A stretch of DNA of 64,000 nucleotides from Rhodothermales bacterium (GTDB taxonomy: Bacteria; Bacteroidota; Rhodothermia; Rhodothermales; UBA10348). Numbering within the stretch: the stretch's first letter is position 1; every line of letters begins with the position of its first letter. Positions 1-30,381 of this stretch are shown here, one piece after another. Both the position numbers and the translations under genes were made by a program. The DNA lies in the NCBI GenBank assembly GCA_040221055.1, contig JAVJVN010000004.1, forward strand, positions 186,001 to 250,000, written 5' to 3'. Below the pieces are notes generated by a model. It was not told where the DNA came from and did not search any database. It worked only from the letters and a program-made list of their open reading frames with translations.

Positions 1-1876
1 AAAATCCACGACCCTCCAACAATTCCAGGCCAAGCGCATCAACAATATCATGGTCGGCCGTCCAACTGACGCGCATGTATTGACCATCGTCCAGGTTCTG
101 GCCTTCCAAGCGGAATTCCTCCATGCTGTACCGGGACCCCGGAGCATCCGATGTCTGCGATACGGCGCGCACGGCCGGTACGGCCAGAAGGGCATTCCTG
201 AGGGCGTCGGGATTTTCGCTCACGAATGTTCGCCCTCCCTCCGTCAGGTCCACGAGCAGTGTGCCGTCCTGGTCGTAGCCGAGATCCGCGTTCAGGGCAT
301 AGGTGAGTTGGTGCCATACCACGATGGCGCCCGCCATCAGGAATACGGAGGCCGCAAACTGGAAAACGACGAGGCCCTTCCGGATGAACATGGCCCGGCG
401 GCGTGGGCCACTCCGTCCCCGCAAGCCGTCAATGGGCGTGAATGACGATATCAGCATGGCCGGCCACCACCCGGCGACCAGGCCCACGCCCACCGCGGAA
501 GCAAGCAGAAGGGTCAAGATGGACGGGTCCAGCACCAGTCGCCACGACACATTCATGCCCGTGAGTTCCGTGAACAGGGGAAGCGCCAGCAGGATGACGA
601 TCACAGCAACGCCTGCGCCAATCAGACTCTGGATGAGGGCCTCGGCCAGCAGCTGCCACACCACCTGCAGGCGCCGCGCCCCGAACGTTTTCCGGATGGC
701 CGTGTCACGAACGCGCGATGTGGCCCGTGCGACCGACAGATTCACGAAATTGACGGCAGCGATGAGCAGGATGAACAGGGCAACAATCGAAAAGGTGTAC
801 ACCACCGCCACCGATCCATTCGCCCGGTACTCCTTCTCCAGGTCGGAGTGCAAGTGGATGGACGCCACGGGTTGCAGGTGCATGCGTGCCATTTCGTGCG
901 GGACGCCCGATACGATCCCGTCGAAGAAGGCGTCCAGGAATTCCGGGAAACGTTTCGTGACGGAACCGGCGGACGTGCGCTCTCCCAATCTGACATAGGT
1001 CAACATGCCGGCCCATGTGCGGCTCTGCGCCCGCGGGGAGTCCGGTCCGAACCGACTCACGAACGGGTACAGGAAGTCCACGTCCAGATGGGTCGGCACA
1101 TCCTGGTCCGCAAAAACGCCCACTACCGGAGAATTCCCTTCGCCCACGATCTCGATCGATTCCCCGACCACGTTGGTCCGACCGAAATATTTCATGGCCA
1201 TCGACTCGCTGATGACCAGCGTCCAGGGCTCCCGGAGCACCGTCGCGGGATCTCCGTGCAGCAGGCGGTAGCCGAAAACATTGAAAAACGTGGAATCGGC
1301 CAATCCTCCGTTCACTTCGCTGAATTGCCGATCCCCCACGCGGAACACGGAAGCGCCCGTCAATGCGTAGAAACGGACCATCTGCTCTACTTCCGGAATC
1401 GTTGCCATGAGCTCCGGTCCAACGGCGGGACCGATGGATGCCCAGTGGGTATCGTCTTCCATGAATTCGAGCGTCACGCGATAGAGTCGGTCGAATGCTG
1501 GATGACCGGTATCGTAGGAGCGCTCGTGGCGCACGAAGACGAATATCAGGATGACACAGGCCAGGCCAACACCCAGACCCAGCGCATTCAACCCGGAAAA
1601 CACAGGTTCACGGCGAACACGACGGGCCGCCAGGCGGAAGTGGTTGGAGATCATGGGAAATGCGGGATTGAATGAATGCCCCTTCCAGAGGCGGGGTCGG
1701 ATGACGATGCTGGCCACGTCCAGCCAGAATCGGAGGGCGGAAGTCGCGGGAGATGCGAGGCGGGAGCGATGCTCGTACAGATCGAACAGGTCCCAGGCCG
1801 TATCGCGGCCACGCTCCTCGCCCATCAGGCGACAAAGGATGCGCGCTGCCAGCGCGGGGGGTTCCTGCCAGCTCAT
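1..1876 (-). CDS. FtsX/MacB-type ABC transporter permease, 3' end cut by window edge
   Basis: About 625 residues are visible and the frame is still open at position 1, so the C-terminus lies outside the window. The protein begins with a short soluble prefix (MSWQEPPALAARILCRLMG), like the permease-prefix domains of such transporters. A membrane segment near residues 75-95 and a MacB-like periplasmic domain follow. A cluster of membrane helices comes near residues 340-480, including the FtsX-typical segment around AIRKTFGARR, and then the second half begins. The ATG at 1876 overlaps the stop of the upstream PadR gene by four bases (ATGA), so the two are translationally coupled. No ATPase gene is visible. 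The transported substrate cannot be inferred; PadR-linked members of this family are usually predicted exporters. Confidence 0.85.
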   Translation of the reverse strand, partial: MSWQEPPALAARILCRLMGEERGRDTAWDLFDLYEHRSRLASPATSALRFWLDVASIVIRPRLWKGHSFNPAFPMISNHFRLAARRVRREPVFSGLNALGLGVGLACVILIFVFVRHERSYDTGHPAFDRLYRVTLEFMEDDTHWASIGPAVGPELMATIPEVEQMVRFYALTGASVFRVGDRQFSEVNGGLADSTFFNVFGYRLLHGDPATVLREPWTLVISESMAMKYFGRTNVVGESIEIVGEGNSPVVGVFADQDVPTHLDVDFLYPFVSRFGPDSPRAQSRTWAGMLTYVRLGERTSAGSVTKRFPEFLDAFFDGIVSGVPHEMARMHLQPVASIHLHSDLEKEYRANGSVAVVYTFSIVALFILLIAAVNFVNLSVARATSRVRDTAIRKTFGARRLQVVWQLLAEALIQSLIGAGVAVIVILLALPLFTELTGMNVSWRLVLDPSILTLLLASAVGVGLVAGWWPAMLISSFTPIDGLRGRSGPRRRAMFIRKGLVVFQFAASVFLMAGAIVVWHQLTYALNADLGYDQDGTLLVDLTEGGRTFVSENPDALRNALLAVPAVRAVSQTSDAPGSRYSMEEFRLEGQNLDDGQYMRVSWTADHDIVDALGLELLEGRGF

Positions 1877-2196
1877 GGCTGCAAGCCTCCCTTGACATAG
1901 GCCAGAAGGGACATGCGCGTGGATTGGACCGCCGAGAGGGCGGCCATTCCGGAGCCCGTCACTTCGTAGAACCGCTTCCGCCGGCCGCCCTTTGCGGGCG
2001 TTACGCTCCCGAGATGCGACCTCAGATACCCTTTCTGCTCCAGCCGGTCGAGCGCCGTATAGACCGCACCCATGGACGCGTCACGCCCGCCCTCCCCTTC
2101 TATCCGCTGTTGGATGGTAACCGCGTAGGCTTCGCTGCCGAGCCCGCAGGCCGCCAACAGGACAAGTTCTTCCAGGGCACCGAGATTGGGATTCAT
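1873..2196 (-). CDS. PadR-family transcriptional regulator
   Basis: This 107-residue protein has the PadR winged helix: an N-terminal ALEELVLLAA segment, a recognition region around GAVYTALDRLEQKGYL, and a basic wing (KGGRRKRFYEVTG). It lacks the long C-terminal dimerisation helix of classical PadR and so belongs to the short PadR-like type found with FtsX permeases. Its stop overlaps the permease start by four bases. It is transcribed divergently from a second PadR/permease pair at 2417, and the shared 220-bp gap contains TTTCAT/ATGAAA dyads that are plausible operators. It probably represses its own operon; the inducer is unknown. Confidence 0.85.
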   Translation of the reverse strand: MNPNLGALEELVLLAACGLGSEAYAVTIQQRIEGEGGRDASMGAVYTALDRLEQKGYLRSHLGSVTPAKGGRRKRFYEVTGSGMAALSAVQSTRMSLLAYVKGGLQP

Positions 2197-2278
2197 GCGC
2201 AGACCGAGCGGGATTCAGAGGTTGTTCAAAGGGAAGCATTTTGATGAGCCAGAATCATTTCTTCGTAAAAGCAGGGAT

Positions 2279-2385
2279 CAAGTTTCATCTCCGGGCAAAA
2301 TGTACCCAGCGCGTGCCACAGCCCGATTTCCGGAAAATGAAACTTGTGATGAAGGCGCCGTATACCGTGTTTCATTTTTTGAAAC
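2279..2385. promoter_or_regulatory. Divergent control region with TTTCA/TGAAA dyads
   Basis: The 220-bp gap between the two PadR genes holds a perfect 10-bp inverted pair, CAAGTTTCAT at 2279-2288 and ATGAAACTTG at 2337-2346. It also holds a compact dyad, GTTTCA-TTTTT-TGAAAC, at 2369-2385. The same core recurs in all arms. The location between two divergent PadR genes makes them candidate PadR operators. This is seen in sequence; binding is inferred. Confidence 0.5.
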
Positions 2386-2416
2386 TCGAATGAGGGACGC
2401 CCATTCCCAAGCCGAT

Positions 2417-2749
2417 ATGAAACTCCTGACCCGAAGTGAAGAATTCGTCCTCTTGTCCGTCTGGCGACTCCAGGACGAAGCGTACAGCCTTCAAATCCGC
2501 GAGCAGATTTCCGAGATCACTGGACATGAATGGTCCCTCGGATCCATATACACCCCCCTGGAGCGACTTGCCCGCAGGCGATTGCTTACTTCACGGCTGA
2601 GCAGGGAAACCCCGGAACGGGGTGGACGAAAGAAACGGATCTACGAACTTACCCCCCTCGGAAAGCGGGCGCTTGTGGACATGCAGACCGTGGGCGCCGC
2701 CATGTGGGACGGTGTCCTGTCCTTCATACCCGAATGGAGGAACGCATGA
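2417..2749 (+). CDS. PadR-family transcriptional regulator (second copy)
   Basis: This is a 110-residue winged-helix protein of the same short PadR type as the gene at 1873-2196 (LTRSEEFVLLSVWRLQ, then GSIYTPLERLARRRLL, then RGGRKKRIYELTP). The frame is open further upstream, but homology to the family begins at the ATG at 2417. Starting there also leaves the TTTCA dyads outside the coding region. The stop overlaps the next permease start (ATGA at 2746-2749), so regulator and permease form an operon. The two divergent PadR genes probably share or cross-regulate the intervening promoters. Confidence 0.85.
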   Translation: MKLLTRSEEFVLLSVWRLQDEAYSLQIREQISEITGHEWSLGSIYTPLERLARRRLLTSRLSRETPERGGRKKRIYELTPLGKRALVDMQTVGAAMWDGVLSFIPEWRNA

Positions 2750-5379
2750 ACCCGAACCGATCACAGGATCCTTCATCCGTCCGTCCCCCTCGCGTGTCGG
2801 CCCGCATCCTTGCGTGGTTGCTCGATGACGACTGGGATACCCCGGCGGGTGACTTCGAGGAATATTTCCACCAACAGGCATCCAGCAAGGGACAACATTG
2901 GGCCCGTTGGTGGTACCGCCGGCAGGTCTGGGCCCTTCTCCCGGGCCGATTGGTGCACAAGGCGGGATGGAGCATGTTCATGTTGTGGAACAGCCTGAAG
3001 GTGGCCATCCGTGCCATGCGTCGTCAGCCGGTCATGTCAGCCGTGAATGTAGGCGGGCTCGCGACGGGCATCGCGGCAGCGGTACTGCTGACCCTGTTCG
3101 TGGTGGATGAGTTCACCTTCGACAACATGCATGCCAAGGAGCACCGGACGGCCCGGGTCGTGGACGTCCAGACCACCGACTCCGGCGAACAACAACACCT
3201 CGTCCATACCATGAATCCCCTGGGACCGGCACTGGTCCGGGACGTGCCGGGTGTGGAGACCGTAGTTCGGATGTTGTCAAGCAGTACCCTGGGTCGCCAG
3301 ACGGTAACGCAGGGGGACCGGACCTATTACGAGGGCCGCTACCTGACCGTGGATTCCACGTTCTTCGATGTCTTCGACTACCCGTTCCTGGCCGGAGACC
3401 CGGAAACCGCGCTGAATGGGCCCGGCCAGGTTGTCCTGACGGAATCGGCGGCACGACAGTATTTCGGCGACGCCGATCCCATGGGTGGCACCCTCGAACT
3501 CCAGTGGCAGGGGGCGTTCACGGTCACGGGGGTCGTCAAGGACCCACCCCCGGATACCCATCTGGACTTCTCCATGCTGTGCACCCTGTCGACCATGCAC
3601 GCCTTCCCGGATTGGACTCCTTTCCTGGAGCGATGGGAAACCAGCAACAGCATAACGTACGTCCTCCTCGAAGAGGGCACGGACATCGCCGCGGTCCAGG
3701 AAGGACTTGAACGCCTGGTCAGGGACCGCGTGGAGGACCGTCGGGTGTACTTGCAGCCCATGGAAGACATCCACTTCGGATCGGCACACATCGTATTCGA
3801 CCGTAACGCCAATCCCTCTTCGCGGACCACCGTCCTCATGTTGCTGCTGGTGGGATTATTCATTGCCGTCATTGCCGGAATCAACTATACCAACATCACC
3901 ACGGCTGCGGCGCTGGGGCGTGTCCGGGAGGTCGGACTTCGGCTGACGTCGGGTGCGTGGCGCAGCCAATTGGTCCGCCAGTTCCTCGCGGAGTCCTTGG
4001 CCACTACCTTCGTGGCGACCCTTATCGCCGGGTTGCTGGTGTGGGCTACCCTTGGACCATTCAACAGCCTGGTCGGCAAGAACCTCGAATTCAACGCGCT
4101 GGTCCCGGGCTTGCTGGCAGGAATCCTGCTGGTCACCGGTCTCCTGGCCGGGGCATGGCCGGCATGGGTGCTGTCCCGGGTCCGGCCCGCCGACGCTCTG
4201 AAGGGTGGATCCCGACTTGTCGGCGGCGGAAACCGGGGCAGGCAATGGCTTGTCGTCACCCAGTACGCGCTGTCCATCGGCATGATCGCGGCCAGCCTGA
4301 TCGTGCATGCCCAGTTGCGCCTCATCCAGACAGCCAACCTGGGCTTCGATCAGGAGCAGTTGGTTGTCATCGATATCAATTCCGGTCAAGCCCGGTCCAG
4401 TTTCGCGTCAATCAAGGCCGACATGTCGGCCGTGCCGTCCGTGCGTGCCGTGTCCGTGTCGTCCAATGTACCCGGAGACTGGAAGAGCATCCGTCAGATG
4501 GATGCAGGTCGCACAGCCGACGAGCTGGTTCCATCCGCCTTCCTGGGTGTCGATTCGGCATTCCTGGAGACCTTCGGGATGACCCTGCTCCAAGGACGCA
4601 ACCTGGACGACCGGAGCGGGGCCGACTCGATGTCGGTGCTGCTGACCGAATCCACGGCATCGCGCCTGGGCGTCTCTGTGGGCGATCGCATCCACATCCC
4701 CGGCAGTTCCCTGGCCCGATCGTTCCAGGACAGCACTTTCGAGCCCGAAGTCGTGGGCATCGTGAAGGACTTCCATTTCAGGTCCCTGCATGAACCCATC
4801 GGAGCCATGGTCATCGGCTTCCATCGCAATCCGCTGACGGCCATCGACTATTTCACGGTCCGCGTGGATGCCCAGAACCTGGAGGAGACGATGGCGGAAC
4901 TGCGAACCATCGGGGAGCAGTACGATCCCGTCACGCCATTCGAATACAATTTCCTGGACGATCGCATACAGGATTTTTACGTGCGGGAGGCCCGGTTGGG
5001 ACGCCTCATGGGTATTGCGACCGGTCTGGCCATCCTGTTGGCCTGCCTGGGCCTTTTCGCCCTCTCTGCCTACATGACCGTGAGACGCACGAAGGAGATC
5101 GGTGTCCGGAAAGTGTTGGGCGCATCGGTCGGCCGGATCACCGTGCTTTTGTCCTCGGAGTTCCTGAAACCGGTACTGACCGCCTTTCTTCTGTGCATCC
5201 CGGCGACCTGGTTCATCATGGAACGCTGGCTGGAGTCGTTTGCCTACCGCACGGAACCCGGTGCGGGCATCTTCCTGCTGGCTGGCGCGCTCGCCCTGGT
5301 ATTTGCGCTGACCACCGTCTCATGGCACACCATCCGGGCCGCAAACCGAAATCCGGTCGATAGCCTGAAGCACGAGTAG
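2746..5379 (+). CDS. FtsX/MacB-type ABC transporter permease
   Basis: This 877-residue integral membrane protein has the same plan as the truncated permease at the left edge. A soluble prefix of about 100 residues is followed by a membrane helix near 105-130, a MacB-like periplasmic domain and an FtsX helix bundle near 375-510. A second helix (RQWLVVTQYALSIGMIAASL), a second periplasmic domain, and a C-terminal FtsX bundle containing TKEIGVRKVLGAS complete it. That is the duplicated 4+4 helix arrangement of the family. The start has a good GGAGG ribosome-binding site and overlaps the PadR stop by four bases. No ATP-binding subunit lies nearby, so one encoded elsewhere would be needed. The substrate is unknown. 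Confidence 0.88.
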   Translation: MNPNRSQDPSSVRPPRVSARILAWLLDDDWDTPAGDFEEYFHQQASSKGQHWARWWYRRQVWALLPGRLVHKAGWSMFMLWNSLKVAIRAMRRQPVMSAVNVGGLATGIAAAVLLTLFVVDEFTFDNMHAKEHRTARVVDVQTTDSGEQQHLVHTMNPLGPALVRDVPGVETVVRMLSSSTLGRQTVTQGDRTYYEGRYLTVDSTFFDVFDYPFLAGDPETALNGPGQVVLTESAARQYFGDADPMGGTLELQWQGAFTVTGVVKDPPPDTHLDFSMLCTLSTMHAFPDWTPFLERWETSNSITYVLLEEGTDIAAVQEGLERLVRDRVEDRRVYLQPMEDIHFGSAHIVFDRNANPSSRTTVLMLLLVGLFIAVIAGINYTNITTAAALGRVREVGLRLTSGAWRSQLVRQFLAESLATTFVATLIAGLLVWATLGPFNSLVGKNLEFNALVPGLLAGILLVTGLLAGAWPAWVLSRVRPADALKGGSRLVGGGNRGRQWLVVTQYALSIGMIAASLIVHAQLRLIQTANLGFDQEQLVVIDINSGQARSSFASIKADMSAVPSVRAVSVSSNVPGDWKSIRQMDAGRTADELVPSAFLGVDSAFLETFGMTLLQGRNLDDRSGADSMSVLLTESTASRLGVSVGDRIHIPGSSLARSFQDSTFEPEVVGIVKDFHFRSLHEPIGAMVIGFHRNPLTAIDYFTVRVDAQNLEETMAELRTIGEQYDPVTPFEYNFLDDRIQDFYVREARLGRLMGIATGLAILLACLGLFALSAYMTVRRTKEIGVRKVLGASVGRITVLLSSEFLKPVLTAFLLCIPATWFIMERWLESFAYRTEPGAGIFLLAGALALVFALTTVSWHTIRAANRNPVDSLKHE

Positions 5380-19571: not shown

Positions 19572-20828
19572 ATGAGCATGAATTCGGATATCGTAGTTGT
19601 CGGCGGCGGGGCGGTCGGGCTGTGCACGGCGTGGTACCTGGCGGAGGCCGGGGCGCGGGTGACGGTGGTCGACCGGATGAGCGTGGATGAGAAGGCGTCG
19701 GTGGGCAACGCCGGCATGCTCGTCCCGAGCCACGTCGTGCCGCTGTCGGCACCGGGCGTGGTGATGAAGGGGCTCAAGATGATGATGAATGCATCGAGCC
19801 CGTTCCAGATTGCGCCGCGCGCAGACCGCTCTTTTTTGCGGTGGCTCTGGCTCTTCAACCGGCACGCCAACCGGCGGCACATGGCCTACGGGGTCCCGCT
19901 GCTGCGTGACCTGTCCCTGAAGAGTGTGGAACTGTTCCAGGAACTCTGTGCGCTGGAAGGACTTTTGGGCGCCGGTTTTGCGCAGACGGGGCTGCTCAAT
20001 CTGTACCGGGGCGACGCCGCCATGCGGGACGACCTGGCGCTGGCCGACGTGGCCGAGCGTGCGGGGTTGGCCATTGACCGGTTGGATGAGGATGCGGTGC
20101 GCGCCCTGGAACCCGATATCCGGGTGCCCATCCGGGGCGGGGTGTTCTACCGGCAGGATGCGTCCATCCATCCGGAAAAGTTCGTGGTGGCACTCGCGCA
20201 GATGCTGGCCGCCCGGGGCGTGGAGTTCGTGGATGCGACAGCGGGCGGCATTGACCGCAGCGTCGGGGTCGTGCTGGATGGCGCGGCGGCCGACGGCCGC
20301 CGCGCCATAGGGGGCGATCGGATTGTTGTTGCCGCCGGGGCCTGGACGCCGGCCCTCGTCAAATCGCTGGGTCTTCGCTTGCCGGTCGAGCCGGCGCGTG
20401 GGTACAGCGTGACCGTCCGCGAGCACGATACGTCCATCCGCATTCCGTGCGTGTTCACCGACGAGAAGATTACGATCACGCCCATGGCGGGTGAACTCCG
20501 GTTCACGGGCACGCTCACGCTGACCGGGTTCAATCGGGAGGTCCAATCGCGCCGAGCCGAGCCCATCCGCCGTCTGGCCCAGACCTATGCGGGCCCCTCC
20601 ATGGCCATCGAGAAGCCCGAAATGTGGAGCGGCTTCCGGCCCGCATCTCCCGACGGTCTGCCCATGATCGGCCTCGTTCCCGGCACCCGCAATATCTACG
20701 TGGCCACGGGCCACGGCATGCTCGGCGTCACCCAGGCGCCCGTCACCGGCCGCATGCTCTCGGCCATGATGGGCGGCCCTGCGCTCGACCTCGACGCCGA
20801 GCCGTACAACCCCGGACGTTTTGGGTAA
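19572..20828 (+). CDS. FAD-dependent D-amino acid dehydrogenase, probable cis-4-hydroxy-D-proline oxidase
   Basis: This 418-residue DAO-fold flavoprotein has a dinucleotide-binding motif at residues 6-14 (DIVVVGGGAVGL) and a C-terminal FAD-contact segment (SPDGLPMIG, then GHGMLGVTQAP). The length and plan match DadA-type enzymes. In the operon it would oxidise cis-4-hydroxy-D-proline to 1-pyrroline-4-hydroxy-2-carboxylate, which feeds the DapA-like deaminase. It overlaps the following fusion gene by eight bases if that gene starts at the TTG at 20821. Confidence 0.85.
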   Translation: MSMNSDIVVVGGGAVGLCTAWYLAEAGARVTVVDRMSVDEKASVGNAGMLVPSHVVPLSAPGVVMKGLKMMMNASSPFQIAPRADRSFLRWLWLFNRHANRRHMAYGVPLLRDLSLKSVELFQELCALEGLLGAGFAQTGLLNLYRGDAAMRDDLALADVAERAGLAIDRLDEDAVRALEPDIRVPIRGGVFYRQDASIHPEKFVVALAQMLAARGVEFVDATAGGIDRSVGVVLDGAAADGRRAIGGDRIVVAAGAWTPALVKSLGLRLPVEPARGYSVTVREHDTSIRIPCVFTDEKITITPMAGELRFTGTLTLTGFNREVQSRRAEPIRRLAQTYAGPSMAIEKPEMWSGFRPASPDGLPMIGLVPGTRNIYVATGHGMLGVTQAPVTGRMLSAMMGGPALDLDAEPYNPGRFG

Positions 20829-23800
20829 GACGATCTCTAGACCGCAGATTTCGCCGGAGGAGGTGTTGCGCCTGGTTCGGGACGCGTACGCGATTGGGGG
20901 CGCCGGCTCCCTCACAGTTGAGCCGCTCCCGGGGGATCGGGATTCCAACTGGAAGGTGTTGGTGGATGGCCGGCCGGTCGGGGTGCTGAAGGTATTCTCT
21001 CCGCTGGCGTCGCGGGCATGGATTGAGCTGGAGGAACGGGTGTTGGGGGCCGCGGCCGCCCGTGGTTTGCCCGTGCCGCAGGTGGTGCCCGCGGCCGACC
21101 AGCGCACGGTCCTGGCGTGGGAAGGGACGTTCGCGCGCATGGTGACGTGGCTGGAAGGCCGCCCCCTCGGGGACACGAATCCAGTTCGACCTGCGCATGC
21201 CCGGGCGCTCGGTCGGGTGCTCGGCCGTCTTGGACGCGCGCTCCAACCCCTGGACACCGCCGGGACCCCCGACGACTTCGCGTGGGACATGCTGAACGCG
21301 GACCGGACCGTGCGCGAGCGGCTGGACGATCTCACGGCGCATCCCTTTCTGCCTGAAACGGGCATGGACCTGGTGCAGGACGTGCTCACGCACTTCGTAG
21401 CCCAGGTCAAACCCGTACTGGCTGGCCTCCCGCGGCAACTCATCCACAACGATGCAAATGACTGGAACGTCCTCGTCCAGGGCGACGCCATAACCGGACT
21501 GCTGGACTTCGGCGACGTCGTGGCCGCCCCCCGCGTGGTGGACGTGGCCGTAGCCGCGGCCTATGCCGCCATGGACCGGACAGACCCGGTGGCGTTCATC
21601 GGCGAGGTCGTGGCCGGGTATCACGCCGAATACCCGCTGGACGAACAGGAAGTGGCCCTCGTGGCCGATCTCGTGCGCATGCGCCTGGTGGTGAGCGTGG
21701 CCATGTCGGCGTGGCGTCGCCGCTCGGAGCCCAACGATCCCTACCTGACCATCAGCGAGAGGTCCGCCTGGACGCTGCTGCATCGGCTGGCGGCCCTCCA
21801 CCCCCGTTTCGTGCACTACCGACTGAGGGCGGCCTGCGGAATGGAGCCCGTGCCCGGCTCGCGGCGCATCGGAAAATGGCTCAAGGAGCGCGCGGGGACC
21901 TTTCCGGCCGTCATCCGGCCGGCGCTCTCCAAGTTGGGCGCCGACCAGAGCGCATCATCCCCTGTCCTTTTTGATTTTTCCGTCAGCAGCCTGGAGTTCG
22001 GGCCCGTCGACCTGACCGTTCCGGGCGCCGCAGAAGACGAAATCTGGCGTCGATGCGGCGACGCGGTAGGCATTGGCCGGTACGCCGAGGCCCGACTGGC
22101 CTACACCGGCGTGCAGTTCGCGACAGAAACAGGCGCCCGCCGCACCATCCACATCGGAATTGACCTGTTCCGGCCTGCGGGATGCGCGGTGCACGCCCCG
22201 CTGGAAGGCACGGTCCAGGCCGCGCGCATCCACGACGACCAGTTCGACTACGGCGGATGCGTCATTTTGGAGCACACCATCGAAGGGCTCCCCACATTCT
22301 GGACGCTGTACGGCCACCTGAGCCATGCTACCGTGCTTGCGCTCACGCCTGGACAGCAGATATCGCCGGGGGAAGCCTTCGCGGAGCTCGGCGCGTGGGA
22401 TGAGAATGGCGGCTGGGTGGCCCACCTGCATTTCGAGGTCATCACCGACCTCCTGGACATGGAGGGCACGTATCCCGGAGTGGCCTCCCCCGACGAGGCC
22501 GATGTCTGGAAGTCGTTGTCCATCAACCCCGCCGACCTGCTGGGACTCGGGCTGGAAGCTACCGCTCCTCCGCCGCCCCCGCTGGACGAATTGCTGGATC
22601 GTCGGCGCGCCGTGCTGGGACCGAACCTGAGCCTGGCCTACCGCCCACCATTGCACATTGCCCGCGGCATCATGCAATACCTGTACGACCCCGAGGGACG
22701 GGCGTACCTGGATGCGGTGAACAACGTGGCCCACGTCGGGCATCAGAATCTGGCGGTCACGCGGGCTGTTTCGCGGCAGGTGCGCACGCAGAACACGAAT
22801 ACCCGGTACCTCCATGAGACGGTGCTGGAATTCGCTGAGCGCCTGCTGGAGACGCTGCCGGACCACCTGGAGGTGGTCTATCTGGTCAATTCAGGCAGCG
22901 AGGCCAACGACCTGGCCCTGCGCGTGGCGCGGACGGCTACCCGCCGTGAGGATGTGCTGGTCCTGGAGGGCGCCTACCACGGGCATCTGGGGTCGCTGAT
23001 TTCCGTCAGCCCCTACAAGTACGACGGGCCGGGGGGCACCGGAAGGCCGTCCGGGACATGGACGGTTCCCATGCCCGATGCTTACCGGGGGGCGTTCCGC
23101 GGGCAGACCGAGGCGACGGGTTCCGCATATGCGGCGCTCGTGAAGGAGGCACTGGACAACGCCGAGGCCGCTGGGCGGCCCATTGGCGCGTTCCTGGCCG
23201 AGTCCGTTCCGGGATGCGGTGGGCAGATCGTACCCCCGCCGGGATACCTGCGTCAGGCTGCCGAGTACGTGCGGGCCGCCGGTGGCGTGGTCATCCTGGA
23301 CGAAGTGCAGGTGGGCATGGGTCGTCCGGGCGATGCGTTCTGGGGCTTCGAGTTGCAGGGCGCCCGCCCCGACATGGTGGTTATCGGAAAACCCGTCGGA
23401 AACGGCCATCCGCTCGGCGTCGTGGCCATGACGCGCCCGCTGGCCCATGCGTTCAACACCGGGATGGAGTACTTCAACACCTTCGGCGGCAATGCCGTCT
23501 CGGCCGCCGCAGGTCTGGCCGTGCTGGCCGAAATCCGTGATCGGGGCTTGCAGACGCACGCCAAGGATGTGGGCGCGCATCTCATGGACGGGCTGCGGGG
23601 ACTCCAGCGCCGCTACCCCCTCATCGGGGATGTGCGCGGCGTCGGCCTCTTCGTGGGCGTCGAACTGGTCCTGGACCGCGAAACGCTGGAACCGGCGGCC
23701 GCCGCCGCCCGGTACATCGCGAACCGCATGGCCGAAATGGGGGTGCTCCTGTCCACCGACGGACCGCTGAACAATGTCCTCAAGATCAAGCCGCCCATGG

Positions 23801-23880
23801 TGTTCACGCGTCAGAACGCGGACTTCCTGGTGCACGTGCTGGAGCGGGTGCTGAAGGAGGACGCCGTGCAGATTCGATAG
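20821..23880 (+). CDS. Trifunctional fusion: APH-type kinase, M23-like domain, class III PLP enzyme (hydroxylysine kinase / phospho-lyase candidate)
   Basis: A 1019-residue protein with three domains. Residues about 1-330 are an aminoglycoside-phosphotransferase-fold kinase with catalytic HNDANDWN near 207 and DFGD near 224. Residues about 420-570 resemble M23 peptidases (HIGIDL, GHLSHA, HLHFEV). Residues about 600-1019 are a class III PLP enzyme with AYHGHLG and the PLP lysine near 856 ([12 protein letters not shown]). The kinase resembles hydroxylysine kinase, and the PLP domain resembles the AGXT2L phospho-lyases acting on phosphohydroxylysine or phosphoethanolamine. Beside hydroxyproline genes, hydroxylysine is the best substrate guess; ethanolamine is the main alternative. 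TTG start, chosen because family similarity begins there. Confidence 0.8.
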
Positions 23881-24301: not shown

Positions 24302-24407
24302 GATGGGCGGGAATTTACTGACTGACCGTCATCGCATCAATCCGGCTTGTTGATTGCCATGCGGCGCCGCGGTAGTATTCGAGATCCTTACCATCCTTCT
24401 CCTGCAT

Positions 24408-24803
24408 ATGCCCGTTTCCTTTTCCGTCCTGATCACTACCGGCCTCCTGGTCTTCAGCATGGGCATGGGGGGATGCGCTCGTGGCGACTCGCCGCGTGAG
24501 ACGGAGCGCGACCCGGCCGGAACCACCCTCATTGGCTCGGAGAAAATGGATGCGCCGCTCCGCCGCGCCCTGCGGGATGCCGACAAGAACCAGCACGATG
24601 TGTTTCTGGGCGTTGCCGAGGAGACCGCCTCGGATGCCGACGCCTTCATGACCCTGCAACAGGACCTGCGTACGGCCGGCCTCACCATCCGCACCATTTC
24701 CGGATCGGTGGTGACGGTCCGCGGACCCCGATCCGCCATTGAAACGGCCGCGGCCGACGATCGGATTGCCTCTCTTCAATTGAGCGCTTCACGCTCATTC
24801 TGA
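24408..24803 (+). CDS. Small lipoprotein resembling the propeptide of the adjacent subtilase
   Basis: This 131-residue protein has a signal peptide ending at a lipobox-like GMGGC. The remainder aligns by eye with the propeptide of the subtilase encoded 28 bp downstream. MDAPLRRALR matches MDAPLRALVR, and LRTAGLTIRTISGSVVTVRG matches VRTPGMTVRTLAGDIAVVRL, followed by matching IASLQLSASR and IRRLEASRTR. Subtilase propeptides (inhibitor I9 fold) fold and inhibit their protease. A free membrane-anchored copy could be an inhibitor or chaperone for the neighbour, or a relic of gene duplication. The ATG at 24408 was chosen because it begins the signal peptide. Confidence 0.65.
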   Translation: MPVSFSVLITTGLLVFSMGMGGCARGDSPRETERDPAGTTLIGSEKMDAPLRRALRDADKNQHDVFLGVAEETASDADAFMTLQQDLRTAGLTIRTISGSVVTVRGPRSAIETAAADDRIASLQLSASRSF

Positions 24804-24830
24804 CCCCAAACCAAACCCAACACAGCACCG

Positions 24831-27029
24831 ATGAACTCCCTGCTGCGCCTGCTCCTCATCGTCCTGCTTGGACTGTCCACCCTGCCCGCCCACGCCCAGT
24901 CGTCCCGCATGGATGCGCCCCTGCGCGCCCTCGTCCGCGGCCATGAAGCCGATGTCCGGCTCGGCAAGGCCGCTGCCGATCGCACCGTGGACATTTTCGT
25001 CCAGCTGGAAAACGGCGTCGTGCCGGATGCGGTCCGTACGCCGGGCATGACGGTCCGCACCCTGGCCGGAGATATTGCCGTCGTCCGGCTCCCCATTGAT
25101 GAGATTCCGGTGCTGGCCCGCATGTCGGGCATCCGCCGCCTGGAGGCCAGCCGGACCCGGCATCTCCTGCATGACGAAAGTCGGGCGCTCATCCGCGTGG
25201 ACCAGGTCCACGCCGGCGCGGATCTCGACCGGGCCTACCAGGGTGAAGGCGTGGTGGTCGGTGTGCTCGACACGGGCATTGACGTCAACCACCCGGATTT
25301 CCGGGACGGAAACGGAACGCGCATCCAGTATCTGCTCGAATACCTGGATCCCGAGGCCCACACCGAAGACTCCCGCGAATACACCAAAGCAGACATCGAT
25401 GCGGACGCATCGGCGGTCCAGCAGATTGACGGTGACGGACACGGAACGCACGTGGCCGGCTCCGCAGCCGGAAACGGTGCCGGCAACGCGGCCATGACGG
25501 GCATGGCCCCGAAAGCCGATTTGATCATTGTCAAAGGCACGCGCGCCGAAACCGGGGGTGGTTTTTCCGATGCCGATATCGTGGCCGGTGTCGAGTACAT
25601 CTTCAATCGCGCCGGTGAAATGGGCAAGCCGGCCGTCGTCAACCTGAGCCTGGGTGGTCATGACGGCCCCCACGACGGCAGCAGCCTTTCCGAACAGGCG
25701 CTGTCGAACCTCAGTGGACCGGGCCGCATCATTGTTGCTGCTGCCGGGAATGAAGGCTTTGACAATATCCACGTCGGCCATTCCACGGGTCCGGGAACGA
25801 CGTACCTGTACGTCGGGGGAGCCAGCAACGAGAGCCAGTTCGGTCTCAATGCCTGGCACGATGCCGGTACCGTCGCCCGTGCTTCGGTTGGCCTCTTCAG
25901 CCTGGATAATGGTGTCCTGACCCTGGTCAGCCAGTCGGATTGGGTCGCCTCCGGTGGGTACGCCGAGGGTATGGAACTCACCTTCGATGGTGAAGTGGTC
26001 GCCAGCGCGGCCATCGACCTGGAAACCACGGCCCATCCCGACAATGGCGATGGCAATCTCCAGGCCCTGATCGAAGGACTGGAGGGCGTGGACTTGTCCA
26101 ACTACCTGGCCGGATTCATGATCGAAGCGTCCGGTACCGGTCGTCTGGATGCCTGGGTCTTCGGGGGCGAATTGATCAACTTCTCCTTGCCCATTGACGG
26201 CTACGAGGTTATTCCAGGGGACTCGGACATGACCGTCGGCACGCCGGCCACCGCCGAAAAGGTGCTTGCCGTCGGCGCCTTCGTATCCAAGAATTCGTGG
26301 ACCAGTGGGGACGGGCTCACCTTCCTCTGGCCCGATCCCAACCTGGGCGGCGAGGCACCTGAAATCGGAGCCTATGCCTACTTCAGCAGCCGTGGACCAA
26401 CGCGTGACGGTCGCATCCACCCGCAGATATCCGCGCCGGGTGCCTTGATCTTCTCTGCCCATTCCGCCGATGTGGCTGAGCCGGACGCGGACCGGATGCT
26501 GGCCGGGGGGCAGTACATCGGATTCGAGGGCACCAGCATGGCGTCGCCCCACATTGCCGGTATTGTCGCCCTCATGCTTGAGGCCGACGCTGAACTGACG
26601 TATGAGGACGTGGTGAACCACCTTTCCACCACCGCGACCGTCGACGCGCAGACCGGTACCGGGCCCAATTCGACGTTCGGTGCGGGCAAGGTCGATGCCC
26701 TCGCTGCGCTCCAGTCCGTGACCGGGTATTCCGGCGTGAATACGTTGACAGAGACGGAATTGCCGCGCGCGGTCACGCTCAGCCAGAACTATCCGAACCC
26801 GTTCAATCCGGTGACCTCGGTGTCCTTCTCGTTGCCGCGGGCCATGGACGTGCAGGTCCAGGTATTCGACGCACTCGGTCGCCACGTCGGCACCTTGCTG
26901 GAAGGTCCCCTGCCCGCCGGGTCGCATGCGGTCCGGTTCGACGCCGGGACGCGCCCCAGCGGCATGTACCTGCTGCGCCTGAACACGGCAACCACGGTGC
27001 TGACGCGCCCGATGATCCTGTTGAAATAG
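24831..27029 (+). CDS. Secreted subtilisin-like serine protease (S8) with sorting domain
   Basis: A 732-residue exported protease: signal peptide to about residue 22 and a propeptide of about 26-110. The S8 catalytic domain has Asp147 (GVLDTGI), His204 (DGHGTHVAG) and Ser569 (GTSMAS). A large insertion near 290-470 separates His and Ser and resembles the PA-type or beta insertions of long subtilases. The last 80 or so residues begin SQNYPNPFNP and match the Por-type C-terminal sorting domain, implying secretion by a type IX-like route. The upstream gene encodes a free copy of the propeptide. Degradation of external protein would suit the nearby collagen amino-acid genes. Confidence 0.92.
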   Translation: MNSLLRLLLIVLLGLSTLPAHAQSSRMDAPLRALVRGHEADVRLGKAAADRTVDIFVQLENGVVPDAVRTPGMTVRTLAGDIAVVRLPIDEIPVLARMSGIRRLEASRTRHLLHDESRALIRVDQVHAGADLDRAYQGEGVVVGVLDTGIDVNHPDFRDGNGTRIQYLLEYLDPEAHTEDSREYTKADIDADASAVQQIDGDGHGTHVAGSAAGNGAGNAAMTGMAPKADLIIVKGTRAETGGGFSDADIVAGVEYIFNRAGEMGKPAVVNLSLGGHDGPHDGSSLSEQALSNLSGPGRIIVAAAGNEGFDNIHVGHSTGPGTTYLYVGGASNESQFGLNAWHDAGTVARASVGLFSLDNGVLTLVSQSDWVASGGYAEGMELTFDGEVVASAAIDLETTAHPDNGDGNLQALIEGLEGVDLSNYLAGFMIEASGTGRLDAWVFGGELINFSLPIDGYEVIPGDSDMTVGTPATAEKVLAVGAFVSKNSWTSGDGLTFLWPDPNLGGEAPEIGAYAYFSSRGPTRDGRIHPQISAPGALIFSAHSADVAEPDADRMLAGGQYIGFEGTSMASPHIAGIVALMLEADAELTYEDVVNHLSTTATVDAQTGTGPNSTFGAGKVDALAALQSVTGYSGVNTLTETELPRAVTLSQNYPNPFNPVTSVSFSLPRAMDVQVQVFDALGRHVGTLLEGPLPAGSHAVRFDAGTRPSGMYLLRLNTATTVLTRPMILLK

Positions 27030-27499: not shown

Positions 27500-28111
27500 A
27501 TGCCAGAGCCCGCGAACGTGACTGTCCTGCTGCATGCCCTGCGCGACGGCGACCGCCAGGCGCTCGACCGGCTGTTTCCGCTCGTGTACCAGGAATTGCA
27601 TGACCGGGCCCACCAGGAACGGAGGCGCCTGGGCGGGCACGCCACCATGAACACGACGGCGCTCGTCCACGAGGCCTACCTGAAACTGGCCAGGCAACCC
27701 GACGGGGACTACGCCAGCCGGGCGCACTTCTACGCGGTGGCCGCGAAGGCCATGCGCCACATCTTCCTCGACTATGCGAAGCGCCGGACCGCCGCCAAGC
27801 GCGGAGGCGCGAACGAGCCGGTTTCTTTGGATGATGCGCCCGACGTGGCTGCGGCCGACCCGAATGCCGCGCTGCCCGATTTCGGGCTCGAGGAAGCCCA
27901 GGAAGTACTCCGTTTGAACGGAGCGCTCGAACAACTGGACCCCCGGATGGCCCACGTCGTGGAGTGCCGCTTCTTCGGCGGCATGAGCGTAGAGGATACC
28001 GCCGCGGCGCTCGGCGTTTCGCCCGCCACCGTCAAGCGGGATTGGGTCGCGGCGCGACTGGCGCTCTGGAACCACCTTCGGGCGTCCGGCGCCGTGGGCG
28101 GAACAGCATGA
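27500..28111 (+). CDS. ECF-type RNA polymerase sigma factor
   Basis: A 203-residue sigma-70 family protein with region 2 (residues about 20-95, YQELHDRAHQ through AMRHIFLDYAKRR) and region 4 (about 140-195, MSVEDTAAALGVSPATVKRDW). The pattern matches the ECF subfamily found next to Ser/Thr kinase genes rather than with anti-sigma factors. Its stop overlaps the kinase fusion start (ATGA at 28108-28111), so the pair is translationally coupled. Kinase control of this sigma factor is the natural inference. Confidence 0.88.
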   Translation: MPEPANVTVLLHALRDGDRQALDRLFPLVYQELHDRAHQERRRLGGHATMNTTALVHEAYLKLARQPDGDYASRAHFYAVAAKAMRHIFLDYAKRRTAAKRGGANEPVSLDDAPDVAAADPNAALPDFGLEEAQEVLRLNGALEQLDPRMAHVVECRFFGGMSVEDTAAALGVSPATVKRDWVAARLALWNHLRASGAVGGTA

Positions 28112-30381
28112 AAACCCTGGAAGACTGGCTCCTTGAGGCCGTGGAACGTCCCGCATCGGAACAGGAGGCGTTCGTGCTTTCGGCCCCGAAAGACCTCCGG
28201 GATGATCTTCGGGCCGCCCTTTCGTCGTATATGGATGCGTCGGGTTATTTTGATACCCTGGCCCGGAAGCTTCACCTGCCCACCACCACCCCCATTCAGG
28301 TCAACGCCTTGCTCTCCTCACCCGAAATGCCGGCCGGCACGACCGTTGCCCACTACAGGATCCAGAGTCACATCGGCGATGGCGGGATGGGGGCCGTGTA
28401 CAAGGCCGAGGATACGCGTCTGGGGCGCACCGTGGCCCTGAAATTCCTGGGCGGGGTCGATGCGCGCGCGCGGGACCGGTTCGTCCGCGAGGCGCAATCC
28501 GCATCGGCGCTCGACCATCCGAACATCTGCACCATTTTCGAGATCGGAGACGCTGACGGGCGCGCCTACATTGCCATGGCCTGCTACGAGGGCCAGACGT
28601 TGCGCGCCCTGATTGATCGGGGGCCCCTGGACGTGGACTCGGCCATGGATATTGCCCGGCAGGCCGCCTCCGGGCTCGCCGCCGCCCACACGAAAGGCAT
28701 CGTGCACCGGGACATCAAACCGGAAAACCTGATGATCCTGCCCGATGGCCGGGTCATCATCCTGGATTTCGGGCTCGCCAAGGGCCAGACCGATGCCACG
28801 GTCACGCAGGAAGGCACGGTCATGGGGACGGCAGCCTACATGAGCCCCGAGCAGGCCACGGGCCGGGCGGTGGACTATCGTTCGGACATCTGGTCGTTGG
28901 GGGCGGTGCTCTACGAAATGCTGGCCGGCGACCGCCCCTTCCCGGGCGCGTACCCGCAAGCCGTCCTGTACGGCATCCTCAACGCCGACCCCGAACCGCT
29001 GTCCGGTCGCCGGGCCGGTCTGCCGCTCCAATTGGTGGACGTGGTGGATCGGATGCTGCAGAAGGAACCGGACCAGCGGTTTCCCCGCTTGCAGGACATG
29101 ATGGATGCACTCCAGGCGGTGCGCTCCCGCGCCGCGGCCAAGTCCGAGGCCCGCGAGCGGGTAGCCGGGGCATCGGGCGGTTCAGATTCCGATCAGGGCG
29201 CCGCTGCAGGCGCCAGTGCGGCTTCCCCGGACACGGATCCCGACGTGCTGCATCTGTTGTGCGTGGACGATGAGCCCGAACTGGAACTGCTCATGCAGCA
29301 GCGCTTCCGCAAGAACATCCGTTCGGGAGCATGGAAATTCGTGTTCGCCCTGGACGGCCAGGATGCGCTCAACAAGCTCGAACAGCATCCCGAAACCGGC
29401 GTCATCCTGACCGACCTGAACATGCCCAGGATGGACGGCCTCACGCTGCTGTCCCGCCTGTCCGAGCTGGACAGACCACTCCGTACCATCGTCGTGTCGG
29501 CGTACGGCGACCTGGAAAAAATCCGGACCGCCATGAACCGGGGGGCATTCGACTTCGTGACCAAGCCCATCGACTTCACCGACCTCGAAACCACCGTCGA
29601 CAAGGCCGCGGCGGACCTCGCAGCCTATCGCCGGGCCCTGCGCGGGCAGAACCAGGCCGTTTCCATCCAACAGGAAATGGACGTTGCCCGGCGCATCCAG
29701 GATGCGACCCTGCCGGTGTCCTTTCCGGACGGCGCCTTCGGTTTCTCGTCCGCGGCCGGCGAAATCAATTCCACGTTCTACGATGCCTTCGACATGCCGG
29801 GCGGACGCGTGGGGCTCGTTTCCGGCGAAGTGCAGGGTCGGAGTGTGACGTCCACGCTGCTGCTGGCCATGGGACAGACCTTCATCAAAGGCCTGCTCCA
29901 GCAAGGCGTCGAGCCCGCAACGGCCGTCGGCATGCTGAACAGCATGCTGTTCGCGGACGACCTGCCGAACGTGGCCTTGCATCTGCTGGTCGCGGTCGTC
30001 CACCGGGACGACGGCGCGATGACCATTGTGAACGCCGATCACCTGCCGCCCTTCCTGCTCTCGGCCGACGGGGACATCCAGGCGTTGGATACGGGAGCAG
30101 GCCCGGCCGTCTGGGCCGGAACGGACGCCGCGTGGAAGCCCACCACGGCCACGCTACCTGCCGGCAGTACCATCGTCCTGCCCTCCCGTGGATGCGTGCG
30201 GGCCATCGGGGAGAGCGGCCACCCGTTCTCGGTCGAACGGCTGGCCGCGACGCTCCGGGAAACCTCGGATTCGCGTCCCACGGCCGTCATCCGGAGCGTC
30301 CTGCGCGCGGTCGGCGACCACGTGGGAGACGCCCCCATGCGCGAAGATCTGACCCTCGTGGCTATGCAGCGGGAAGCGTGA
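28108..30381 (+). CDS. Ser/Thr kinase - receiver - degenerate SpoIIE/PP2C phosphatase fusion
   Basis: A 757-residue cytoplasmic protein. Residues about 80-365 are a Hanks-type kinase with a glycine loop at 90-95 (GDGGMG), Lys112, HRDIKPEN near 200 and DFGLAK, all intact. Residues about 380-510 are a receiver with phospho-Asp near 435 (LTDLNMPRM). Residues about 525-755 follow the SpoIIE phosphatase plan but lack key metal ligands: the usual GGDYYD is INSTFYD, GDVSG is GEVQG, and TDG is SRG. Only the final ED is kept. The phosphatase is therefore predicted to be inactive and to act as a binding module. It links two-component and Ser/Thr signalling to the sigma factor. Confidence 0.85.
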   Translation: MKTLEDWLLEAVERPASEQEAFVLSAPKDLRDDLRAALSSYMDASGYFDTLARKLHLPTTTPIQVNALLSSPEMPAGTTVAHYRIQSHIGDGGMGAVYKAEDTRLGRTVALKFLGGVDARARDRFVREAQSASALDHPNICTIFEIGDADGRAYIAMACYEGQTLRALIDRGPLDVDSAMDIARQAASGLAAAHTKGIVHRDIKPENLMILPDGRVIILDFGLAKGQTDATVTQEGTVMGTAAYMSPEQATGRAVDYRSDIWSLGAVLYEMLAGDRPFPGAYPQAVLYGILNADPEPLSGRRAGLPLQLVDVVDRMLQKEPDQRFPRLQDMMDALQAVRSRAAAKSEARERVAGASGGSDSDQGAAAGASAASPDTDPDVLHLLCVDDEPELELLMQQRFRKNIRSGAWKFVFALDGQDALNKLEQHPETGVILTDLNMPRMDGLTLLSRLSELDRPLRTIVVSAYGDLEKIRTAMNRGAFDFVTKPIDFTDLETTVDKAAADLAAYRRALRGQNQAVSIQQEMDVARRIQDATLPVSFPDGAFGFSSAAGEINSTFYDAFDMPGGRVGLVSGEVQGRSVTSTLLLAMGQTFIKGLLQQGVEPATAVGMLNSMLFADDLPNVALHLLVAVVHRDDGAMTIVNADHLPPFLLSADGDIQALDTGAGPAVWAGTDAAWKPTTATLPAGSTIVLPSRGCVRAIGESGHPFSVERLAATLRETSDSRPTAVIRSVLRAVGDHVGDAPMREDLTLVAMQREA

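Follow-up and report, generated by a model that had tools for sequence, protein, structure and literature searches.

A lipid-anchored propeptide homologue encoded beside a type IX-secreted subtilase in Rhodothermales: a candidate dedicated inhibitor

Propeptides of the subtilase type fold their enzyme and then block it, and a subtilase exported by the type IX secretion system (T9SS) after folding in the periplasm puts the cell that makes it at risk. Fungi, yeast, plants, Toxoplasma and Plasmodium have stand-alone inhibitors that resemble propeptides (PMC6993865), and bacterial inhibitors encoded by an adjacent gene are known for cysteine proteases, namely Spi, the staphostatins and Bfi/Bti (PMC2873492, PMC3462683). 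In the open-access literature we found no bacterial stand-alone subtilase propeptide, nor a lipid-anchored one, the stand-alone examples being eukaryotic only. Here we analyse a gene pair within a 64,000-nucleotide stretch of a Rhodothermales bacterium (assembly GCA_040221055.1, contig JAVJVN010000004.1, positions 186,001 to 250,000; hereafter the window), in which a small lipoprotein is encoded directly upstream of an S8 family subtilase. The lipoprotein shares ancestry with the S8 propeptide, and members of its family lie beside S8 genes elsewhere in the phylum Bacteroidota.

Kinship of the lipoprotein and the S8 propeptide

Residues 44-131 of the lipoprotein align with residues 24-112 of the protease, which comprise the whole of its propeptide, at 34/95 identical positions (BLASTP, E 5e-9). 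The local alignment score is 106, against a mean of 27.6 and a maximum of 53 over 5000 shuffles, and other 90-residue tiles of the protease score only 19-32 against the lipoprotein. When 40 lipoproteins are aligned with 40 propeptides by hhalign the probability is 99.2% (E 9e-20). Chance resemblance is ruled out by the shuffle test and by this profile-profile alignment. Searched over the whole window genome, the family profile marks exactly two places, the lipoprotein and the protease propeptide. In the combined alignment the whole domain is common to both groups, with a 10-25-residue insert before the first strand of the propeptides mostly absent from the lipoproteins. Set beside MEROPS I9, the lipoproteins display homology to an S8 propeptide and no match to the corresponding profile, as Inhibitor_I9 (PF05922) matched neither the window lipoprotein nor 11 + 19 family members at E<=1. 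Single-sequence scans of the lipoproteins with Pfam, NCBIfam and PADLOC yielded no credible family and a PDB sequence search with the lipoprotein profile yielded chance matches only. The CspB prodomain model PF18425 gives no match to the lipoprotein and 14.2 bits on the protease's own propeptide, below its cut-off of 25.

Structure prediction gives the lipoprotein the fold of a subtilase propeptide. When its AlphaFold2 (AF2) model is compared with the PDB by Foldseek, subtilase prodomains occupy ranks 1, 2, 3, 5, 7, 8, 9, 11 and 13, the top-ranked being 8c4z, 3whi, 3afg, CspB 4i0w, 3cnq chain P, 1spb chain P and 2z58 chain B. For 1spb_P the TMt is 0.74, and for the lower-ranked 2z56_B it is 0.79 with a root-mean-square deviation of 2.1. 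The predicted strands and helices of the protease propeptide follow the same order as those of the lipoprotein.

A first-pass annotation of this DNA had described the lipoprotein as a free, membrane-anchored copy of the propeptide and had proposed pairwise alignment and structure prediction as checks. Shared ancestry and predicted fold are both borne out, by the significant alignment and by the AF2 model with its Foldseek matches, but the word copy does not extend to a recent duplicate. Recent duplication of the neighbouring propeptide is ruled out by the best match of every lipoprotein (40/40), which is another lipoprotein and not a propeptide, and by a tree that splits the two groups: the lipoprotein/propeptide label needs 3 changes compared with 27 on average when shuffled, none of 500 shuffles being as low. 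The window lipoprotein clusters with that of genome G525 (94/85) and not with its own neighbouring propeptide. A single origin of the lipoproteins is neither rejected (approximately unbiased test, p 0.219) nor proven on an alignment whose 108 columns are few and in which several branches are long. Lipoprotein and propeptide have diverged in step across loci (Mantel r 0.735, p 2e-4), a correlation that is in part shared species history, and own-pair similarity exceeds that of permuted pairs (p 2e-4). Given the tree split and the in-step divergence, the lipoprotein would be better described as an ancient, co-inherited propeptide paralogue. The two genes and their parts are:

24408-24803, + strand: lipoprotein gene, 131 amino acids, ATG start
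24408-24473, + strand: lipoprotein signal peptide, residues 1-22, ending MGMGG before the cysteine (from the sequence and the family-wide lipobox)
24474-24476, + strand: lipobox Cys23 (MGGC), predicted lipid attachment site
24537-24800, + strand: propeptide-like domain, lipoprotein residues 44-131
24804-24830: intergenic gap of 27 bp, which fits a two-gene transcription unit
24831-27029, + strand: S8 subtilase gene, 732 amino acids, CspB-like architecture
24831-24896, + strand: protease signal peptide, residues 1-22, ending AHA before Q (sequence inspection)
24897-25169, + strand: the protease's own propeptide, residues 23-113 (alignment and model)
near protease residue 113/114: predicted processing site, by analogy with N102/D133 of SpBcA (PMC11982257)
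25269-25271, + strand: catalytic Asp147
25440-25442, + strand: catalytic His204
25776-26240, + strand: beta-rich insert within the catalytic domain, residues ~316-470, matching the CspB jellyroll insert (split S8 matches, Foldseek)
26535-26537, + strand: catalytic Ser569, in GTSMASP
26790-27026, + strand: T9SS type A sorting tail, residues 654-732 (TIGR04183, PF18962)

Both genes lie where the first-pass annotation had placed them, with a gap one base pair shorter than its 28 bp. An alternative in-frame TTG at 24354, upstream of the lipoprotein ATG, was judged a less likely start since it lies ahead of the signal peptide. The gap between the genes showed no consensus promoter or terminator, the promoter scan being uninformative for this lineage. 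As the likely flanking genes on both sides are on the opposite strand, lipoprotein and protease form an isolated pair.

The window protease has the Asp-His-Ser triad of an active S8 subtilase (D147/H204/S569), each residue of which is invariant in 31 aligned proteases, and its beta-rich insert sits between the catalytic His and Ser. Its tail scores 31.8 bits with TIGR04183 (cut-off 23) and 27.4 bits with PF18962 (cut-off 27), and SprA, the T9SS translocon protein, is encoded in the window genome (E 3e-85), so that both the C-terminal sorting domain and the secretion system expected of a T9SS cargo are present. The protease model (predicted local distance difference test, pLDDT, 86.1) places the propeptide elements at residues 29-106, followed by a low-confidence linker at residues 107-115 where processing is expected. 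The best structural match of this model is CspB of C. perfringens (Foldseek, E 1.6e-34). No companion of the lipoprotein family was seen beside the other S8 proteases of the window genome.

Elsewhere in the window, a 1019-residue frame (20821-23880, +) is an apparent fusion of phosphotransferase, M23-type endopeptidase and class III aminotransferase. An ECF-like (extracytoplasmic function) sigma factor gene (27500-28111) directly precedes an 805-residue gene (27964-30381, +) with motifs of a Ser/Thr kinase, a response-regulator receiver and a PP2C-like phosphatase.

A family of lipoproteins paired with S8 proteases

Searches were restricted to one phylum and covered the order, the class and an even sample of the phylum. 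A first round with the single lipoprotein as query gave weak matches, yet these lay directly beside matches of a protease search in relatives, and profiles A1, A2, A3 and A4 built from the first-round matches were then searched across the genomes. Matches occurred in 14/114 genomes of the order, 23/245 of the class (20/240 with A4) and 32/395 of the phylum sample (37/395 with A4), tallies that include matches to propeptides inside proteases. Among about 45 stand-alone members examined, 42 adjoin an S8 gene on the same strand and the pairing across the phylum looks obligate, with the provisos that collecting the pairs via the lipoprotein biases how many proteases count as paired, and that contig breaks in metagenome-assembled genomes may split some loci. 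The lipoprotein gene is upstream of the protease in 33 and downstream in 7 of the 40 curated pairs, and stand-alone members are spread over the phylum, in no fewer than 15 of its family codes. Members found only by a rebuilt profile (G443, G460, G133, G521, G292 and G529) all adjoin S8 genes as well, which provides an internal check on the pairing. In a contig search that used the entire protease as query, matches to the T9SS tail predominated and one clear extra pair (L154) emerged. A full cis propeptide is retained in every paired protease examined, and the lipoprotein therefore does not replace a missing one.

The unpaired members are two at contig ends (G519, G517:C70) and a solitary one (G037), the latter at locus L327 (G037:C1) being a family member with no adjacent S8 gene. 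At locus L329 (G519:C128, minus strand) the neighbour resembles a PorV/PorQ-type T9SS outer-membrane protein and the contig ends 438 bp past the lipoprotein gene. Only G359 is frameshifted among the members examined: at L114 (G359:C11) the lipoprotein gene lies in two overlapping frames, by frameshift or assembly error, and the neighbouring protease frame is open. In L012 (G060:C55) a T9SS subtilase without a propeptide domain (1372-3306) has a 148-residue lipoprotein directly upstream (871-1317), which the family profile does not match and which is possibly another type of partner. Proteins of ~213-690 residues at L144, L145 and L146 (G099, G095 and G048) give a weak propeptide-like profile match, with no recognised S8 domain in the loci examined.

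As in a bacterial outer-membrane lipoprotein, a lipobox cysteine follows an N-terminal signal peptide in the window protein and in 39/40 curated members. G117 is the only one without, and its start may be misplaced. Acidic residues are depleted just after the cysteine (8.6% at +2..+5 compared with 14.5% overall), with none at these positions in 26/38 members and two in 1/38, and the window lipoprotein reads ARGDS at +2..+6. In Capnocytophaga, Bacteroides and Flavobacterium an acidic signal directs the export of lipoproteins to the surface (PMC5080379). No family member carries this K-(D/E)2 or S-D-D type of signal, the mark of a surface-exposed lipoprotein (LES), bearing in mind that the signal was defined in other Bacteroidota families and is uncalibrated in this class. 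This favours the outer membrane's periplasmic face over the surface, and we take it as the best guess for where the lipoprotein resides. The first-pass annotation had predicted membrane anchoring, which the lipobox backs, and had placed the pair's action at the cell surface, with which the missing export signal is at odds. Its proposed check, the same pair elsewhere, is borne out by the 40 curated pairs and by the pairing with S8 proteases across the phylum described above.

The lipoprotein ends shortly past its last strand, at a distance that is constant in the family. Its C-terminus lies 7-12 residues past the conserved cap-Glu column in 36/40 members (median 10), the cap position itself being Glu or Asp in 30/40. 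In BPN' the helix-capping residue Glu69 of the 77-residue propeptide is 8 residues from the end (PMC6993865; 1spb), and in SpBcA the sequenced mature N-terminus, N102, is 31 residues before D133 (PMC11982257). The spacing to the catalytic Asp, together with the analogy with SpBcA, puts the expected autoprocessing junction of the proteases ~8 residues past the cap-Glu column. The lipoprotein ends within a few residues of this predicted autoprocessing point, and its tail could therefore plug the active site.

Proposed capture in the envelope and rival explanations

We consider it probable that the lipoprotein is a stand-alone, lipid-anchored propeptide homologue that acts within the envelope as the dedicated inhibitor of the co-encoded, T9SS-secreted subtilase. 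The protease would cross the inner membrane via Sec, then fold and autoprocess with its own cis propeptide, and the processed enzyme could turn active in the periplasm before type IX export. The lipoprotein, placed on the outer membrane's periplasmic side or elsewhere in the envelope, would capture the processed enzyme, its four-stranded sheet covering the active-site cleft and its last residues entering the substrate pockets much as a cleavage product does. Once export draws the protease away from its anchored inhibitor, which would let go or be left behind, the enzyme would be free to act outside the cell. The prodomain of CspB stays bound to the wild-type enzyme and works in trans, it blocks the active site only with its last three residues intact, and when supplied in trans it both inhibits and helps fold (PMC3567191). 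Because it does both, inhibition and folding help, the two roles raised by the first-pass annotation, are both plausible for the lipoprotein.

Several points weigh against an inhibitor in the envelope. The lipid anchor alone would also suit a tether or a foldase. The presumed localisation relies on an export signal described from other families of the Bacteroidota. Conservation is poor in the tails of the lipoproteins, and so an inhibitory fit cannot be judged from their sequence. The Foldseek E-values for the lipoprotein model are each weak, at 0.017 and up with none <0.001, as a propeptide is small and its fold a common one. Some related S8 proteases that share the propeptide type have no lipoprotein nearby (for example at L259, L261-L264, L266-L268 and L271), and the partner is therefore common but not always required.

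The lipoprotein might instead be a trans foldase, whose main role is not inhibition but help with the folding or refolding of the protease at the outer membrane, for instance once the cis propeptide is gone. S8 prodomains are folding chaperones, the CspB prodomain in trans restores folding (PMC3567191) and the lipoprotein is a full-length prodomain homologue, but we regard this as unlikely given that all the paired proteases examined already have a cis propeptide, that close S8 relatives with such a propeptide do without the lipoprotein, and that a foldase would have no need to end exactly at the processing point, as the family does. A near-universal lipid anchor and variable tails might also suggest a tether or stabiliser that binds the mature enzyme without full block and keeps it attached to the outer membrane or surface. 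This would be akin to the role proposed for PrcB, a lipoprotein of the PrtP subtilase operon that interacts with PrtP and is needed for its accumulation (PMC8167434). The chances of such a role appear small, since the T9SS tail already gives the routes of export and cell-surface attachment established for T9SS cargo, propeptide-like binding fills the active-site cleft, and the family has no PrcB-type Pfam match, PrcB itself reportedly having no homologue beyond the oral treponemes.

The close pairing, seen in either gene order, resembles that of effector and immunity protein, and the distribution is patchy, with the lipoprotein present in the window genome and absent from three genus mates. 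Such features could reflect an outside-exposed lipoprotein that shields the producing cell, or its relatives, against the protease once secreted, like the immunity protein of an antibacterial effector. We hold this to be improbable, as acidic residues are scarce where the surface-export signal (PMC5080379) would lie and the proteases look like ordinary degradative T9SS subtilases. Least probable is a non-functional remnant left when the 5' part of the protease gene was duplicated in tandem, to which the common origin with the propeptide and the direct adjacency might point. The gene is intact in ~15 families with lipobox, length and motif conserved, forms its own lineage in the tree, also occurs downstream of the protease and, among the members examined, is frameshifted in G359 alone. 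This conservation refutes a leftover for the family as a whole, but it could hold for single genomes.

How cells avoid self-digestion by a T9SS cargo protease that folds in the periplasm is largely unanswered, and dedicated inhibition within the envelope offers a specific and easily tested answer. If correct, it would add a bacterial, membrane-anchored branch to the stand-alone subtilase propeptides and would give a function to a small-lipoprotein family that matches no Pfam or NCBIfam model. The ~40 candidate inhibitor-protease pairs would also be a natural set for specificity studies. More tentatively, and with doubt outweighing confidence, the family may represent a hitherto undescribed safety module throughout the Bacteroidota, in which lipid-anchored propeptide paralogues, inherited with their subtilases, silence the autoprocessed T9SS enzymes at the periplasmic face until export detaches them, so that secretion amounts to activation.

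Comparison with known systems

Several bacterial systems come close to the present family. In Streptococcus pyogenes, SpeB-Spi likewise consists of a protease and an adjacent-gene propeptide analogue that inhibits it, as cited in PMC2873492, but SpeB is a C10 cysteine protease of unrelated fold and Spi is cytoplasmic. The S8 partner of the window lipoprotein thus sets it apart from Spi-type inhibitors. Bfi/Bti of Bacteroides, in the same phylum, are small exported proteins, several of them predicted lipoproteins, co-transcribed up- or downstream of a C10 protease (PMC2873492, PMC3462683). They differ in their cysteine protease partners and as lipocalin-like staphostatin homologues with no significant propeptide identity. 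PrcB, from the dentilisin operon of Treponema denticola, is like the present family a small lipoprotein in a subtilase operon and is needed for the subtilase (PMC8167434), but at 23 kDa it acts as a stabiliser or anchor and has neither homologues reported outside oral treponemes nor a reported propeptide relation. PopD of the Myxococcus xanthus PopC-PopD pair (PMC6434023) controls secretion from within the cell and is degraded on starvation, and unlike the window lipoprotein has no reported propeptide relation or lipid anchor. CspB of Clostridium is the nearest solved relative of the protease, with a prodomain that remains bound and is active in trans (PMC3567191). This prodomain is part of the protease gene with no separate lipoprotein, unlike the present pair.

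Stand-alone proteins of this kind are also known from eukaryotes. Pleurotus POIA1, the yeast peptidase B inhibitor and Arabidopsis SPI-1 have a stand-alone propeptide fold and inhibit subtilases (PMC6993865). They have no operon link to one protease, are not lipoproteins and are said to be without significant propeptide similarity, unlike the present family, whose similarity to the cognate propeptide is plain. SUB1-ProM of Plasmodium and TgMIC5 of Toxoplasma resemble the present family in that a separate gene encodes a propeptide-fold protein, and SUB1-ProM adjoins subtilase genes and selectively inhibits its neighbour (PMC6993865). Both are eukaryotic, with no lipid anchor described and a predicted action in the parasitophorous vacuole, whereas the family described here comes from bacteria, carries a lipid anchor and has T9SS cargo as its partner.
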